A DNA stretch of 64,000 nucleotides from Salinigranum marinum (GTDB taxonomy: Archaea; Halobacteriota; Halobacteria; Halobacteriales; Haloferacaceae): the NCBI RefSeq assembly GCF_024228675.1, contig NZ_CP100461.1, forward strand, positions 868,001 through 932,000, in the 5' to 3' direction. The notes beneath the pieces were generated by a model. That model saw only the letters and a program-made list of their open reading frames with translations. It ran no database searches and had not been told where the DNA came from. The translations under genes and the position numbers were made by a program. Position 1 is the stretch's first letter, and every line of letters begins with the position of its first letter. Of this stretch, positions 9,100 to 15,514 are shown in pieces.

Positions 9100-9249
9100 T
9101 CAGTCACCCCCGCCCGGCAGCACCCTGGCTCCGTATTCCCCACATCGGTAGACACGCCGCCAGCCACCGCCGGTCTCGCGGCGCTCGCGGACGTCGCGTG
9201 CGCCACAGTCGGGGCAGCGGGTCGGCCCGCCACCGGGCGTGCCCCTCAC
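9100..9249 (-). CDS. Small zinc-ribbon-like protein coupled to the RimK fusion
   Basis: 49 residues starting at GTG 9249. The start overlaps the upstream stop as GTGA, so the two genes are translationally coupled. The protein has a CPDCG knuckle (Cys12, Cys15) and, 20 residues on, YRCGEYGARV, where a second CxxC would normally sit. Only the first of those two cysteines is present; a Tyr (TAC) stands where Cys (TGC) is expected. It therefore has three candidate ligands, or uses another residue. Haloarchaea encode many tiny CPxCG proteins, some shown to matter for growth or biofilms. A role alongside the ligase is inferred only from coupling. Confidence 0.65.
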   Translation of the reverse strand: MRGTPGGGPTRCPDCGARDVRERRETGGGWRRVYRCGEYGARVLPGGGD

Positions 9250-10601
9250 TCCAGCAGTTCTTCTTCCTCCTCGTCGAGGTTGCGGTCCTCGGCGTCGGAG
9301 CGCCGGCGGACGTCGACGCGGTAGTGCTGGAGGATGTCCCGTCCCAAGAGCACGGGGTAGTCCATGTGCGAGCGGTCCTCGACGCTCGCGGTGACGGTGT
9401 GCTGGCGGCCGCCGATTCCGATGACGAGGTCGACGACCGGCCGGGCCTTCCCACCCTTGACCGACCCGCTCTTGACGCGGGTCATGCTCTTGATCGGTCC
9501 CGCGCCGATCTCCGCGGCGAGCGACGTGTCGATGCTCGTCCGGGTCGCACCCGTGTCGGACTTGGCGAGCGTGGTCGTCGAGCCGCTGGTGCCCGAGACG
9601 ACGACGTCCTCGATGTAGCCGATGAGTGGCGTGTCCTCGCGCTGGGTCATCGCCGACCGCGGCTTACAGGAGGGCGTGGAGTCGTCGAGCGTCGAGGAGA
9701 GCTGTTCGACCCGGGCGTCGTCGACCGCGCCGCCGGCCGTCTCGATGGCGAGTTTGGCGATGTGCGGCGCGGCGCTGGTCCCCGTCGCCTGGTGGAGTCC
9801 CTTGAAGCCCGCGGTGGGGTTCACTTCGAGGACGAACCAGCCGTCGTCGCCCTCGACGAGGTCGACGCCGACGTAGTCGAGGCCCATGACCTCGGCGGCA
9901 TACAGCGCCGTCTCGCGCGCCTCGGTCGGCATGTCGTCCGTGGCGTCCTCGACCGCGCCGCCGAGGGCGACGTTTGTCCGCCAGTCCCCGTCGGGGGCGT
10001 AGCGGTACATCGCGCCGACGACCTCGCCGGCGACGATGTACACCCGGAGGTCGCGGTGCCGGGTCTCGTCGCGGTCGATGAGGCTCTGGAGGAACGCCTG
10101 CCGGTTGCCGACCTTCGGGTTGACGGGTTCGGTGAGGTCGACCTTCCACGTGCCGCCGCCATGAGTACCGATGGCGGTCTTGTAGACGCCGACGTCGCCG
10201 AACCGCTCTCTGCCCTGGTTGAGCCGTTCGTTCGACAGCGCGAGCAGGGCGTCCGGCACCTGGATGTTCCAGTTCGCCAGGGTCGCGGCCGTAGCGAACT
10301 TGTGGATCGCGGTGAGGACGGCGTCGGGTTCGTTCAGCATGGGGCGGATGCGGTTGAACGTCGTCGCCAGCCCCAGGAGCTCCGCGGGCTCTTCGGTGTT
10401 CGACAGGAGCAGGCGGTTCGCGATGATGTCCACCTCCGGTTCGACGGTCACCTCGCTCCCCTCGATGTTGATCGCGGCGTTCTCACGGCGGAGCCACACA
10501 GGCGTGTGGCCCAGGTCCTCGACAGCGTTCAGGATCGCCTTCGTCTCCTTGCTGTTGTGGAGGCTGAGAACACCCACCCGTACGTCGTCCGTTTCGGTCA
10601 T
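9246..10601 (-). CDS. RimK-type ATP-grasp ligase fused to a retropepsin-like protease domain
   Basis: 451 residues from the ATG at 10601; the longer frame to 10730 is rejected because it would read through the divergent promoter. Residues 1-300 are a RimK-family alpha-L-glutamate ligase, with ATP-grasp segments VYKTAIGTHGGGTWKV and the Mg-binding WFVLEVNPTAGFKG. Residues 325-430 are a DUF785/RimB-like domain with the aspartyl protease signature SDTGATRTSID (DTGA at 349-352) and the family ending PVLLGRDIL. RimK adds glutamate to protein or cofactor C-termini; RimB-like domains are predicted to trim such tails. The very C-terminus is itself EEEEELLE. The target could be a ribosomal protein, a small peptide or a cofactor such as F420. 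It is coupled to the zinc-ribbon gene and divergent from an amidohydrolase. Confidence 0.88.
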   Translation of the reverse strand: MTETDDVRVGVLSLHNSKETKAILNAVEDLGHTPVWLRRENAAINIEGSEVTVEPEVDIIANRLLLSNTEEPAELLGLATTFNRIRPMLNEPDAVLTAIHKFATAATLANWNIQVPDALLALSNERLNQGRERFGDVGVYKTAIGTHGGGTWKVDLTEPVNPKVGNRQAFLQSLIDRDETRHRDLRVYIVAGEVVGAMYRYAPDGDWRTNVALGGAVEDATDDMPTEARETALYAAEVMGLDYVGVDLVEGDDGWFVLEVNPTAGFKGLHQATGTSAAPHIAKLAIETAGGAVDDARVEQLSSTLDDSTPSCKPRSAMTQREDTPLIGYIEDVVVSGTSGSTTTLAKSDTGATRTSIDTSLAAEIGAGPIKSMTRVKSGSVKGGKARPVVDLVIGIGGRQHTVTASVEDRSHMDYPVLLGRDILQHYRVDVRRRSDAEDRNLDEEEEELLE

Positions 10602-10729
10602 GTCCTCGGGGTTTCGGACCGGTCGAAAAAGTGTTGACGGTTGCCGCCCCGCCGTGTGACTGACTCGCGCGCTCACGACACGTGTGGGAACGCACACGTC
10701 GATCGAGCGCAGGTTCCGGTGACTCACCA

Positions 10730-10737
10730 TTTAAATA
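10730..10737 (+). promoter_or_regulatory. TATA box of the aspartoacylase-like gene
   Basis: TTTAAATA, 24-31 nt before the ATG at 10761, which implies a leaderless message. The 159-bp gap to the RimK fusion start at 10601 also holds the palindrome-like GTGTGGGAACGCACAC at 10682-10697. Confidence 0.55.
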
Positions 10738-10760
10738 CGCGGGCGGTCAGTAGCGCATAT

Positions 10761-11786
10761 ATGACGAGCGACGGGGCGTTTACGTACAACGGGGGACGGG
10801 TCGATCCAGGCGAGACCCAGAACATCCGCTACGGCATCTCCGAGACGTATCTGGGTGACCCCGTTCGCATCCCGGTGACCATCATCAACGGCGAGCGCGA
10901 GGGACCGACGGTGTTTCTCACCGCCGCGGCCCACGGCGACGAACTCAATGGCATCGAGGTCGTCCGCGAAGTCGCCTTCGAGTGGGACCTCTCGAACCTC
11001 GCGGGGACGCTGGTCTGTATGCCCGTGTTGAACGTCCCCGCGTTCCTCGCCCAGCAGCGCTACCTCCCGATCTACGACCGCGACCTCAACCGGTCGTTCC
11101 CCGGCCACGAGGAGTCCACCTCGGCGAAGCGGATGGCCTACCGCATCTTCCAGAACTTCATCGAGCCCTGCGACTTCGGCCTCGACTTCCACACCTCGAC
11201 GCGGGGACGGACGAACATGCTGCACGTCCGCGCCGACATGACCCACAAGGGGGTCGCCCGGCTCGCCCGCGCGTTCGGCTCGAACGTCATCATCGACGGC
11301 GAGGGCCCCGACGGGACGCTGAGGGGAGAGGCGACGAAGGCCGGCGTGCCGACGATCACGGTCGAGATGGGCGAGGCCCACCGCTTCCAGCGGACGCTGA
11401 TCGACGACGCGCTCGCGGGCGCCGAATCCGTGTTCGCCGAGTACGGCCTCCGGGAGTCGACGCTCGTCCGGTGGCCCGGCTGGCGGACGGTCATCACGGA
11501 CGACAAGGAGAAGACCTGGATCCGCGCCGACGCCGGCGGGATCGTCGACATGCACTACGAGGTCGGCTCGCTCGTCCACGCCGGCGACCGGATCTGTACG
11601 ATCACCAACCCGTTCAAGAACGACAACACGTCCGTCGAGGCCCCGTTTACGGGCGTGCTCGTCGGGATCCTGGAGAACCCGGTCGTCTACCCGGGCAATC
11701 CCATCTGTCACCTCGTCGAACTCGACGACAAGACCCGGAGCGTCGTCGAGCAGCGGCAGTCACCCGACTACCACGCACACGTCTGA
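10761..11786 (+). CDS. Succinylglutamate desuccinylase/aspartoacylase-family zinc amidohydrolase
   Basis: 341 residues. Zinc ligands are visible as His and Glu in TAAAHGDELNGIEVVREV and His in DFGLDFHTSTRG, with the catalytic Glu in TVEMGEAH. The last 80 residues form the beta-rich domain of the family (GGIVDMHYEVGSLVHAGDRI). These enzymes cleave amide bonds of N-acyl amino acids or act as carboxypeptidases. The ATG at 10761 sits the right distance behind a TATA box. It is divergent from the RimK/RimB fusion. RimK, RimB-like and AstE-like genes are known to cluster, with the AstE member predicted to remove added residues, so a shared substrate is likely. The substrate is not known. Confidence 0.85.
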   Translation: MTSDGAFTYNGGRVDPGETQNIRYGISETYLGDPVRIPVTIINGEREGPTVFLTAAAHGDELNGIEVVREVAFEWDLSNLAGTLVCMPVLNVPAFLAQQRYLPIYDRDLNRSFPGHEESTSAKRMAYRIFQNFIEPCDFGLDFHTSTRGRTNMLHVRADMTHKGVARLARAFGSNVIIDGEGPDGTLRGEATKAGVPTITVEMGEAHRFQRTLIDDALAGAESVFAEYGLRESTLVRWPGWRTVITDDKEKTWIRADAGGIVDMHYEVGSLVHAGDRICTITNPFKNDNTSVEAPFTGVLVGILENPVVYPGNPICHLVELDDKTRSVVEQRQSPDYHAHV

Positions 11787-11849: not shown

Positions 11850-12242
11850 ATGAGTAAGCATTACAATCGTGGTCTCGTCGAGGACTTCGGTCGGTGGCGG
11901 GAGTTCTCCGCGGGGATGTGGGCCTGGGTGTTCCACAAGTTCACGGGCTGGGTGCTCGTGGGCTATCTCTTCACCCATATCGCGGTGCTGTCGACCGCGC
12001 TGTCGGGTGCCGGGGCGTACACCGATACGATCCAGGCGCTCGAGAGCCTCCTCGTGGTGCGCATCCTCGAGGTCGGGCTGCTCGCCGTCGCGGTGTTCCA
12101 CATCCTCAACGGTCTCCGACTGTTGCTGGTGGATCTCGGCGTCGGGTTGGACGCGCAGGACAAGAGCTTCTACGCCTCGCTCGTGCTGACGGGCGCGATC
12201 GTCGTCGCGAGCGTGCCGACGTTCCTGGCGGGGGTGTTCTGA
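11850..12242 (+). CDS. sdhC: Succinate dehydrogenase cytochrome b subunit SdhC
   Basis: 130 residues, three membrane helices (about 30-50, 68-90 and 104-128), with [20 protein letters not shown] providing histidines for haem b or quinone binding. It is the first gene of sdhCDBA, anchoring the succinate:quinone oxidoreductase of the TCA cycle and respiratory chain. A TATA-like CTATACC lies near 11816. The start ATG at 11850 is 6 nt after CACAGGAGC. The next gene begins 3 nt after its stop, so the two anchor genes are coupled. Confidence 0.9.
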
Positions 12243-12244
12243 CG

Positions 12245-12616
12245 GTGGCCGAGCGCTACTCGTCGTTCAAGCCCGGCGGCCGTCGGTGGCTCTGGCAGCG
12301 CATCACGGCGGCGTTTCTCGTCATCGTGCTCGCGTTTCACTTCTTCCTGTTGCACTTCGTCAACCACGCCGACGAGGTGACGTTCGCGATGTCCTCCGCG
12401 AGGATGGAACAGCTCTCGTACTACTCGCTGATGATCCTGTTCCTCGTGACGGCGACGTTCCACGGCGTCAACGGCGTCTACAACGCCCTCGTCAACCAGG
12501 GGCTCACCGGCACGAAACTACAGGTCGTCAGAGGGGTGCTCCTCGTCGCCAGCGCCGTGTTGATCGTCCAGGGCATCCGGACGGCGAACGCGTGGGCGGG
12601 CTTCCCGACGTTCTAA
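12245..12616 (+). CDS. sdhD: Succinate dehydrogenase membrane anchor SdhD
   Basis: 123 residues from the GTG at 12245, 3 nt after the sdhC stop. The longer open frame back to 11894 overlaps all of sdhC and is rejected. Three hydrophobic helices: AAFLVIVLAFHFFLLHFV, LMILFLVTATFHGVNGVYNA and LLVASAVLIVQGIRTA. The histidines in the first and second helices are candidates for haem/quinone ligation. It is the second anchor subunit of complex II. sdhB begins 4 nt after its stop. Confidence 0.88.
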   Translation: MAERYSSFKPGGRRWLWQRITAAFLVIVLAFHFFLLHFVNHADEVTFAMSSARMEQLSYYSLMILFLVTATFHGVNGVYNALVNQGLTGTKLQVVRGVLLVASAVLIVQGIRTANAWAGFPTF

Positions 12617-12620
12617 CACC

Positions 12621-13505
12621 ATGAGTACGCAACTTCCCGAGACCGAGACGCAGGAGGCGGAACCGGAGACCGAACAGCCCTCGAAGGGCGACGAGCGGCG
12701 GGCGAAACGCCGACGGCGAGCGGCCGAACGCGAGCGCGAACGGCAGGCCGAGGAGGCCGAGCGCGCGCGTGAAGCCGAGGATACCGTCCAGCTGAAGGTG
12801 TTCCGCTACGACCCCGAGGTACCAGAGAAAGAGAAACCGCGCTTCGACGAGTTTCACGTCCCCTTCACGAAGGGGATGACCGTCCTCGACGCGCTGATGT
12901 ACGCGCGGGACACGTACGACTCGTCGCTCACCTTCAGGCACTCCTGTCGCCAGGCCATCTGTGGCTCCGACGCGCTGTTCGTCAACGGGCGACAGCGGCT
13001 CGGCTGCAAGACCCAGATCGCCGAGTTAGAGGAGCCGATCCGCGTCGAGCCGCTCCCCCACCAGGAGGTGGTGAAAGACCTCGTCGTGGACATGGAGCAC
13101 TTCTACGACCAGATGGAGGCCGTCGAGCCGTACTTCCAGACCAACTCCCTCCCGGAGGGTGAACTCGACGAACAACGGCAGACCAGGGAGAACCGCGAGA
13201 AGGTCAAGATGTCCACCCGGTGCATCTGGTGTGGCGCGTGTATGTCCTCCTGTAACATCGCCGCCGGCGACAACCAGTACCTCGGCCCGGCCGCGATCAA
13301 CAAGGCCTACCGGTTCGCGATGGACGAACGCGAGGGCGAGGACATCAAGCAACAGCGGCTGGAGATCATCGAGCAGGAACACGGCGTCTGGCGGTGTCAG
13401 ACGCAGTTCTCCTGCACCGAGGTCTGCCCGAAGGACATCCCCCTGACGGAGCACATCCAGGAACTCAAACGCGAAGCGGTCAAGAACAACCTGAAGTTCT
13501 GGTGA
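12621..13505 (+). CDS. sdhB: Succinate dehydrogenase iron-sulfur subunit SdhB
   Basis: 294 residues. Residues 1-55 are a charged, glutamate/arginine-rich extension typical of haloarchaeal SdhB. The 2Fe-2S ferredoxin domain follows, with CRQAICGSDALFVNGRQRLGC. The C-terminal domain has CIWCGACMSSCN and CQTQFSCTEVCPKD for the further clusters. It passes electrons from the flavoprotein to quinone. The operon order C-D-B-A is the usual haloarchaeal one. A 104-bp gap follows before sdhA. Confidence 0.94.
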   Translation: MSTQLPETETQEAEPETEQPSKGDERRAKRRRRAAERERERQAEEAERAREAEDTVQLKVFRYDPEVPEKEKPRFDEFHVPFTKGMTVLDALMYARDTYDSSLTFRHSCRQAICGSDALFVNGRQRLGCKTQIAELEEPIRVEPLPHQEVVKDLVVDMEHFYDQMEAVEPYFQTNSLPEGELDEQRQTRENREKVKMSTRCIWCGACMSSCNIAAGDNQYLGPAAINKAYRFAMDEREGEDIKQQRLEIIEQEHGVWRCQTQFSCTEVCPKDIPLTEHIQELKREAVKNNLKFW

Positions 13506-13569
13506 CAGAGGGGACGGCGGCGGAAACCCTCAAGTTCACCCGGTCCTAACCGGCACACACGGACGGACG

Positions 13570-13576
13570 TTTAAAA
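13570..13576 (+). promoter_or_regulatory. Possible internal promoter before sdhA
   Basis: TTTAAAA about 34-40 nt before the sdhA ATG, in the only sizeable gap of the sdh operon. It may allow extra expression of the flavoprotein. Confidence 0.4.
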
Positions 13577-13609
13577 GGAACGCGGGACACACGGACACTC
13601 ACTCACACA

Positions 13610-15514
13610 ATGTACGAACACGACGTCATCGTGGTCGGCGCGGGCGGTGCGGGCCTGCGTGCGGCCATCGCAGCACAGGAAGAAGGGGCCGACGTGGCCA
13701 TCGTCACGAAGCTCCACCCAGTCAGAAGCCACACGGGCGCGGCCGAGGGCGGCATCAACGCCGCGCTCCGCGAGGGCGACTCCTGGGAGGACCACGCCTA
13801 CGACACCATGAAGGGGTCGGACTACCTCGCCGACGCCCCGGCGGTGGAGGCGCTCTGTACCGAGAGCCCGAAGGAGACGATCCAGCTCGAACACTGGGGG
13901 ATGGCGTTCTCGCGCGACGAGGACGGCCGCGTCTCCCAGCGCCCGTTCGGCGGCCTCTCGTTCCCCCGGACGACGTACGCAGGAGCCGAGACCGGCCACC
14001 AGCTGCTCCACACGATGTACGAACAGCTGGTCAAACGCGGCATCGAGGTGTACGACGAGTGGTACGCCACCCGCCTCGCCGTGAGCGACGACGAGCGCCC
14101 CGAGGACCGAACCTGCCACGGCGTGGTCGCGTACGACATCCAGTCCGGCGAGATCGCCGGCTTCCGCGCCCGCAAGGGCGTCGTCCTCGCGACGGGCGGG
14201 CTGGGACAGGTGTTCGATCACACGACCAACGCCGTCTCCAACACCGGCGACGGCGTGGCGATGGCCTACCGTGCGGGCGTCCCCATCGAGGACATGGAGT
14301 TCATCCAGTTCCACCCGACGACGCTTCCGTCCACTGGTGTGCTCATCTCCGAGGGCGTCCGCGGCGAGGGCGGGATCCTCTACAACGCCGAGGGCGAGCG
14401 GTTCATGTACGAACACGGCTACGCGAACAACGCCGGGGAACTCGCCTCGCGGGACGTCGTCTCCCGCGCCGAACTCACGGAGGTGAACGAGGGGCGCGGA
14501 ATCGAAGACGAGTACGTCCACCTCGACATGCGTCACCTCGGCGAGGAGCGCATCATCGACCGCCTGGAGAACATCCTCCACCTCGCGGAGGACTTCGAGG
14601 GCGTCGACGGCCTCGACGAGCCGATGCCGGTCAAACCCGGCCAGCACTACGCCATGGGCGGCGTCGAGACCGACGAGAACGGCGAGACCTGCGTGGCGGG
14701 GCTGTACGCCGCGGGCGAGTGCGCCTGTGCCTCGGTCCACGGGGCCAACCGCCTGGGAGGCAACGCTCTGCCGGAACTCATCGTCTTCGGCAAGCGCGCC
14801 GGCCAGCACGCCGCCGGCCGTGATCTGGGGACGGCACGGATCGAGACGGGTAAGCGCGGCGAGTACGAGGTCGGCGAGGTCGACACCCCGGTCACGCCCG
14901 GGGAGGTCACCGGCCGTGAGCCGGGCGACGTCGCCGCCGACGGCGGAGCGGCACCCGACGGCGGTCACGAGCCGGACGGTTCGGGAGCACGTGAGACCAG
15001 GTCTGACGGCGGTGCCACCGCGGAACTTACCCCCGACGAGTGCGTCGAACGCGCGGTCACCGACGAACGGACCCGCGTCGACGCGCTCATGTCCCGCGAC
15101 GGGACGAACCACGCGAACATCCGCGCGGAAGTCCAGCAGTCGATGACCCGCTTCGTCAACGTCTTCCGCGAGGAAGAGGGGCTCAAGCAGGCGCTGCGCG
15201 ACATCCGCGACGCGCGCGAGGCGTACCAGGACGTCGCCGTCTCGGACCCGTCGCGGACGTTCAACACCGACCTGATCCAGACCATCGAGACGCGGAACAT
15301 CCTCGACATCGCGGAGGCGATCACCCTCGGCGCGCTCGTTCGCGACGAGTTCCGCGGCGCACACTGGCGCAAGGAGCATCAAGAACGCAAGGACGAGTCG
15401 TGGCTGAAGCACACGATGCTCTCGTGGAACGACGGTACCCCCGAGGTGTGGTTCCGTCCCGTCATCCTCGAAGGCGAGGAGAAGGCGTACGAACCGAAGA
15501 TCCGGAGCTACTGA
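13610..15514 (+). CDS. sdhA: Succinate dehydrogenase flavoprotein subunit SdhA
   Basis: 634 residues. FAD dinucleotide fold at the N-terminus (IVVGAGGAGLRAAIAAQEEG), the HTGAAEGGINAAL segment near the covalent-FAD histidine, and the active-site HPTTLP and HGANRLGGNALPEL motifs. The C-terminal helical domain begins near residue 470. Between about residues 405 and 475 lies a low-complexity linker rich in Gly, Asp, Ala and Pro, which bacterial enzymes lack. It oxidises succinate to fumarate at the inner membrane face with SdhB/C/D. The 674-residue open frame on the opposite strand is a shadow. Confidence 0.95.
   Translation: MYEHDVIVVGAGGAGLRAAIAAQEEGADVAIVTKLHPVRSHTGAAEGGINAALREGDSWEDHAYDTMKGSDYLADAPAVEALCTESPKETIQLEHWGMAFSRDEDGRVSQRPFGGLSFPRTTYAGAETGHQLLHTMYEQLVKRGIEVYDEWYATRLAVSDDERPEDRTCHGVVAYDIQSGEIAGFRARKGVVLATGGLGQVFDHTTNAVSNTGDGVAMAYRAGVPIEDMEFIQFHPTTLPSTGVLISEGVRGEGGILYNAEGERFMYEHGYANNAGELASRDVVSRAELTEVNEGRGIEDEYVHLDMRHLGEERIIDRLENILHLAEDFEGVDGLDEPMPVKPGQHYAMGGVETDENGETCVAGLYAAGECACASVHGANRLGGNALPELIVFGKRAGQHAAGRDLGTARIETGKRGEYEVGEVDTPVTPGEVTGREPGDVAADGGAAPDGGHEPDGSGARETRSDGGATAELTPDECVERAVTDERTRVDALMSRDGTNHANIRAEVQQSMTRFVNVFREEEGLKQALRDIRDAREAYQDVAVSDPSRTFNTDLIQTIETRNILDIAEAITLGALVRDEFRGAHWRKEHQERKDESWLKHTMLSWNDGTPEVWFRPVILEGEEKAYEPKIRSY

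Follow-up and report, generated by a model that had tools for sequence, protein, structure and literature searches.

The RimK-RimB system of Pseudomonas combines an ATP-grasp alpha-L-glutamate ligase (RimK) with a retropepsin-like protease (RimB) that removes poly-glutamate (Little et al. 2025, PMC11957791). There the two are separate proteins acting on the bacterial ribosomal protein S6, and the accessible text describes no self-tail; to cut a tail, RimB needs about five to six glutamates (Glu) in a row, and it stimulates the synthesis of poly-alpha-glutamate by RimK. A hybrid, RimBK of Desulfotalea psychrophila, joins ligase and protease in one chain, and its protease part is active on poly-Glu (PMC11957791). 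The same study surveyed 5959 bacterial accessions, bacteria only, and its accessible part makes no mention of archaea, AstE or succinylglutamate. Here we describe a haloarchaeal counterpart in Salinigranum marinum, found in a stretch of 64,000 nucleotides (contig NZ_CP100461.1, positions 868,001 to 932,000; hereafter the window), in which a RimK-type ligase and a RimB-type retropepsin are fused in one protein of 451 amino acids (9246..10601, minus strand, ATG at 10601, stop TGA), as identified by Pfam and homologues, and an AstE-like hydrolase gene lies divergently beside it. RimB is N-terminal in the Desulfotalea hybrid, whereas in the haloarchaeal fusion it is C-terminal and followed by a conserved Glu-Glu end (PMC11957791, accessible text, for the hybrid).

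The pairing of ligase and protease and its hybrid form have already been published for bacteria. The open-access literature yielded no archaeal fusion of the opposite order that is accompanied by AstE and ends in a conserved Glu-Glu; what is newly observed here is the C-terminus of the fusion itself. The RloA-RloB-RloC system of Pseudomonas aeruginosa also places a PF05618-type retropepsin and an ATP-grasp protein in one operon with a link to osmotic stress, but, in the accessible part of its description, it consists of secreted proteases and a membrane protein and is unfused (PMC12239564). In methanogens, RimB, RimK and AstE genes are adjacent in three of the four loci with full-length RimB (L132, L133 and L137; the fourth, L131, has no AstE), so that the same three families stand side by side, but as separate genes, with RimK ending in GKG, RimB ending in K, D or E, and no Glu-Glu. 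The cyanophycin cycle comprises the ATP-grasp synthetase CphA, the peptidase CphB and the dipeptide hydrolase CphZ. It resembles the haloarchaeal locus in combining ATP-grasp synthesis, endo-cleavage and an AstE-like dipeptide hydrolase, and CphZ was among the Foldseek matches of our hydrolase model, but its polymer is another one and its endopeptidase is unrelated. The amidoligase survey of Iyer et al. from 2009 reportedly covered neighbourhoods of RimK, retropepsin and AstE.

The initial annotation of this DNA had proposed a RimK-type ligase fused to a retropepsin with its DTGA motif intact, and thereby a writer and an eraser of peptide tails in one chain, and the domain content bears this out. 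The ligase part (residues 7-291; 9729..10583, minus strand) scored 89.9 bits against PF08443 RimK (cut-off 21) and the retropepsin part behind it (residues 326-434; 9300..9626, minus strand) 35.9 bits against PF05618 (cut-off 27), the latter over profile positions 69-132 only; PF08443 and, at E<=1e-3, PF05618 were detected in all 45 diverse members of the fusion family. The DTGA catalytic motif (residues 349-352; 9546..9557, minus strand) lies intact within KSDTGAT (residues 347-353), and D349, G351 and A352 are invariant in 45/45 of these members. K101, K141, R63, D184, R186, R208, N210, E259 and N261 of the ligase part are invariant in alignment with E. coli and methanogen RimK. The cleft of Pseudomonas RimK is described as holding oligo-Glu via S7, R8, S14, R64, S68, R189 and N262 (PMC10092738, accessible text); S7, R64, R189 and N262 correspond to identical S13, R63, R186 and N261 in the fusion, while the counterparts of S14 and S68 are ambiguous in the gapped alignment. 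Against the curated subfamily TIGR00768 the fusion scored 141.8 bits (cut-off 143.4); identity with CofF (54.7 bits) or MptN (113 bits) was rejected, both scores being far below cut-off. Both domains were formed in the AlphaFold model (predicted local distance difference test, pLDDT, 78; predicted template modelling score, pTM, 0.71), and RimK structures topped the VIA-align list with Z of about 25 over residues 7-291 (270 residues, root-mean-square deviation 2.8-3.0). The retropepsin part had sequence matches to the PF05618-type structures 9g59 and 9g58; the whole-chain structural search returned no retropepsin rows, but matches to the ATP-grasp part took up its lists, so this absence is uninformative. 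The domains and the conservation of catalytic residues, both observed directly, support the view that the fusion unites a putative writer and a putative eraser in one chain.

Past the last retropepsin strand, the fusions carry a region of variable sequence, 6 to 23 residues in length, that almost always has Glu-Glu (EE) at its end. Among gene-called fusions, 109 of 113 distinct proteins end in E and 93 in EE, whereas of 1550 distinct non-fusion proteins encoded in these loci 226 end in E and 30 (1.9%) in EE; tblastn-derived fusion models gave closely similar values (110 and 95 of 114 distinct models). When the ortholog clusters represented in 12 or more loci were compared (15 in all), the fusion reached 82% EE and the next highest cluster 12%. 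In the 45 diverse fusions, E occupies position -1 in 43 and position -2 in 38, with D in none at either position (E/D 0.96/0.00 and 0.84/0.00), and it occurs in 12 at position -3 (E/D 0.27/0.04), with E/D of 0.36/0.09 at position -4. Shuffling within the tails, which keeps their acidity, produced a mean of 4.3 EE ends and a maximum of 14 in 20,000 shuffles, against 36 observed. The same end was found in 14/15 analysed paralogues of about 50-60% identity, on tails as short as SRTVEE (6-8 residues); four further paralogues, three with other ends and one broken, were left out of this count. RimK-family proteins without a retropepsin domain end in EE in 0/22 cases, and the methanogen RimK proteins (L131, L132, L133, L137) all have a basic end, ...RGKG, opposite in character to the acidic end seen in haloarchaea. 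E. coli S6, the classic acceptor of RimK, which adds Glu to its C-terminus, ends in GDSEE. RimK acts on S6 in bacteria, and RimK homologues act on coenzymes in Methanocaldococcus (PMC11957791, accessible text). The fixation of Glu, never Asp, at the terminal positions matches the acceptor needs of a RimK-type ligase and thus makes this end a candidate self-acceptor. In the window it corresponds to the Glu-rich tail ...DEEEEELLE (residues 435-451; 9249..9299, minus strand), a feature missing from the initial annotation, which had called the target unknown and left this candidate unconsidered.

The fusion is widespread among haloarchaea: a search with it gave matches at E < 1e-100 in 165/195 genomes of the order (manual count), and Haloferax volcanii too has a match to the family. 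Across 246 genomes of the phylum, PF05618 in open reading frames (ORFs) longer than 400 amino acids was confined to the same haloarchaeal order, the non-haloarchaeal matches lying in frames of at most 305 amino acids, and among plasmids 40 records matched, and the 10 in which 80% or more of the query was covered are all haloarchaeal. Within the searched data the RimK-then-RimB fusion is therefore haloarchaeal. The source genome itself contains a second, intact copy about 60% identical to the first and ending in DEDTEE (L116, G000:C1 ~585.3-586.6 kb), and a third, broken copy split over several frames (L117, G000:C2 ~280.3-281.3 kb). Divergent fusion paralogues on haloarchaeal megaplasmids (L149, L148, L150) lie within a few genes of those for universal stress proteins, which suggests that this paralogue clade has a role in stress, and one on a Haladaptatus plasmid (L152 1-7308) lies near an AstE-family gene and a gene of the glutamate-cysteine ligase family. 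Other archaea of the phylum (L134-L136, L138-L140) have a second, weaker PF05618 family, matching profile positions 25-138 in frames mostly of 170-220 amino acids, near which no RimK or AstE match appeared at the thresholds used.

The divergent AstE-like hydrolase of the initial annotation was likewise recovered, across 159 bp, as an AstE/AspA-fold metallohydrolase of 341 amino acids (10761..11786, plus strand) scoring 157 bits against PF24827 (cut-off 25). H58, E61, H144 and E202, which we take to be the zinc and catalytic residues, are invariant in 35 sequences and form an H-x-x-E...H, E pattern. In the Foldseek search with its model (pLDDT 83), DoeB and relatives came best, followed by CphZ. 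The hydrolase shares its fold and these residues with DoeB, AstE and aspartoacylase, but scores far below both equivalog cut-offs (AstE, 15.9 of 305.65 bits; DoeB, 89.3 of 402.7 bits), so that its substrate likely differs from those of DoeB and AstE. By analogy, the likeness to CphZ suggests that it may finish off peptides released by the endopeptidase.

Clustering and co-occurrence with the fusion were observed directly. AstE lies divergently within 500 bp of the fusion in 81/117 loci and at 0.5-5 kb in 26 more; the remaining 10/117 have no AstE in the flank examined, which spans at least 4 kb in eight of them. In the same 195 genomes, with both proteins cut at E 1e-100, 163 have both, 27 neither, 2 only the fusion and 3 only AstE, an agreement of 190/195; the fusion-only genomes (G030, G139) are both less than 80% complete, and the AstE-only genomes are G002, G133 and G167. 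For the 167 genomes with a completeness of 90% or more, the corresponding numbers are 149 with both, 17 with neither, 1 with AstE only and 0 with the fusion only. The region upstream of sdhA was inspected in nine genomes without an intact fusion: in G064, sdhC adjoins the glycosylase gene that is normally beyond the fusion, in G172 AstE is reduced to 70 residues, and in G167 (L194 4319-4528) AstE is intact and the adjoining fusion has shrunk to its first 70 residues, the fusion alone having been lost recently. Better evidence of coupling than joint absence comes from several genomes that keep both genes at distant sites or on separate contigs (G188, G128, G063, G094, G026, G038) and from the methanogen loci. 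Furthermore, the second of the fusion copies in G072 likewise adjoins a separate copy of AstE (L143). The hydrolase is thus supported as a true partner of the fusion.

The 159-bp region between the two genes (10602..10760, no strand) presumably serves as a divergent promoter; a TATA-like TTTAAATA (10730-10737) lies 24 bp ahead of the ATG of the hydrolase, a spacing that would be in keeping with leaderless transcription. Directly behind the hydrolase, tblastn homology across loci placed four genes (11850..15514, plus strand) that we take, from their family features, to be sdhC, sdhD, sdhB and sdhA; they too were missing from the initial annotation. Their linkage to the fusion-AstE pair is common, not obligatory, and many Halorubrum loci have the pair with no sdh in the flank examined.

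Given these features, the fusion could be a self-glutamylating and self-trimming enzyme that holds writer, eraser and primary acceptor in one chain, with recycling by the AstE-fold hydrolase, a reading to which we give a probability of about 50%. The RimK part would use ATP to add alpha-linked glutamates onto the Glu-Glu C-terminus of its own chain or of a neighbour in an oligomer. The retropepsin part, which would need a second copy as its pair for activity, would trim the tail after it has reached a sufficient length, and the divergent hydrolase would break down or recycle the released glutamyl peptides. The length of the tail could gauge the glutamate, ATP or salt state; alternatively, the tail could be a primer for building poly-alpha-glutamate. 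The reactions, the modification of the fusion by itself, what the hydrolase acts on and what the cycle serves physiologically are inferred here.

Nevertheless, several observations weigh against self-glutamylation. Conservation of an end may reflect its recognition alone and not its extension, and the Desulfotalea hybrid failed to glutamylate Pseudomonas RpsF (PMC11957791, accessible text). The fusion of the window itself has the minority ending LLE rather than EE, other fusions end in L (L102, L120), G (L105) or Q (L021), and those of L155, L182 and L186 also end otherwise than in EE. The oligo-Glu contact R8 of RimK corresponds to Leu in the window fusion (contact from the accessible text of PMC10092738). 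In the structure model the tail is disordered (residues 439-451, pLDDT < 50), and three inner segments in the ATP-grasp and retropepsin loops are of low confidence. The loci of G064, G172 and G167 indicate that the joint absence of fusion and AstE partly reflects single deletions, as may happen where the two genes are neighbours, and is therefore weaker evidence of coupling.

The main rival, possible but in our view unlikely, is that the fusion writes and erases Glu tails on another protein or on a small molecule, such as a translation factor, a ribosomal protein or an F420- or pterin-type coenzyme, its own Glu-Glu being a regulatory substrate mimic. The action of RimK on S6 and of its relatives on Methanocaldococcus coenzymes (PMC11957791, accessible text) speaks for such a target, as do the MptN and CofF scores, though both are far below cut-off; a coenzyme substrate would leave the fixed EE on the fusion's own end unexplained. 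None of the 14 other ortholog clusters of the fusion loci has a comparable conserved EE end, and no family exceeds 25% EE in 20 S10/spc ribosomal-protein regions (25 clusters in at least 15/20 loci, some of them shadow ORFs), so that the S10/spc proteins were rejected as targets; these regions are a small part of the proteome, which leaves room for a target in trans. Succinate dehydrogenase was rejected too, the sdhA, sdhB and sdhC proteins having no conserved Glu end, and its linkage is treated as synteny. More doubtful is that the Glu-Glu end serves unmodified as an intramolecular inhibitor or docking peptide, a product mimic lying in the ligase or protease cleft until displaced by substrate. 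The same sequence evidence would fit, the end being Glu-specific, terminal and kept on very short tails, yet a product mimic need not sit at the extreme C-terminus, where positions -1 and -2 are fixed while -3 and -4 are free.

General causes of the acidic end appear highly improbable. Haloarchaeal proteins are acidic, but Asp is absent from the last two positions in the 45 sequences though common upstream, and among the remaining proteins of these loci EE ends occur at the low rate given above. As to gene-end signals at the DNA level, the last Glu codon is GAG in 103/110 fusions against 77% in the gene interior; however, EE holds with convergent neighbours (44/56 fusions whose next gene is convergent), which rules out the ribosome-binding site of a downstream gene as the cause of these codons. 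Equally hard to credit is the four-part module of the initial annotation, in which a zinc ribbon would be an added working subunit beside ligase, protease and hydrolase. The small ORF of 49 amino acids (9100..9249, minus strand) does overlap the fusion, its GTG start lying over the TGA stop as had been noted, and ribbon genes with CxxC...CxxC follow the fusion in three other Salinigranum sequences (L004, L124, L125). Its identity as a zinc ribbon did not stand: the window copy retains three of four cysteines (CPDC...RCGEY, Tyr replacing the fourth Cys), and no Pfam zinc-ribbon model reaches cut-off on it. A ribbon lies beside the fusion in 1/117 loci (L004), and the relatives that other genera possess (L126-L130) lack an adjoining fusion within the ~3 kb examined; these are very small haloarchaeal proteins of the pattern CxxCGxxDSxxxRYxTGGGWRxxYRCxECG in scattered contexts. 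Found next to the fusion in Salinigranum alone, and one Cys short in the window, the ribbon was rejected as a working subunit and is a passenger outside the conserved unit. Of the claimed layout, the hydrolase is conserved and the ribbon is not, so that the check named in the initial annotation, conservation in other genomes, refutes the ribbon as part of the unit.

To our knowledge, archaea lack an S6 of the bacterial type, and for this reason the target of archaeal RimK-RimB systems has been an open question, for which the conserved Glu-Glu end now offers a specific candidate acceptor. We tentatively propose that haloarchaea may possess writer, eraser and substrate in a single chain, which would build a poly-alpha-glutamate tail on its own Glu-Glu end and cut it back, and that a dedicated hydrolase may recycle what is released. 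If true, this would be the first archaeal protein alpha-glutamylation system and an uncommon instance in which a single polypeptide combines writer, eraser and substrate; a widespread uncharacterised AstE-family hydrolase would also gain a role. The system would then either prime its own amino-acid polymer, much as glycogenin does, or serve as a self-timing gauge of glutamate or salt.

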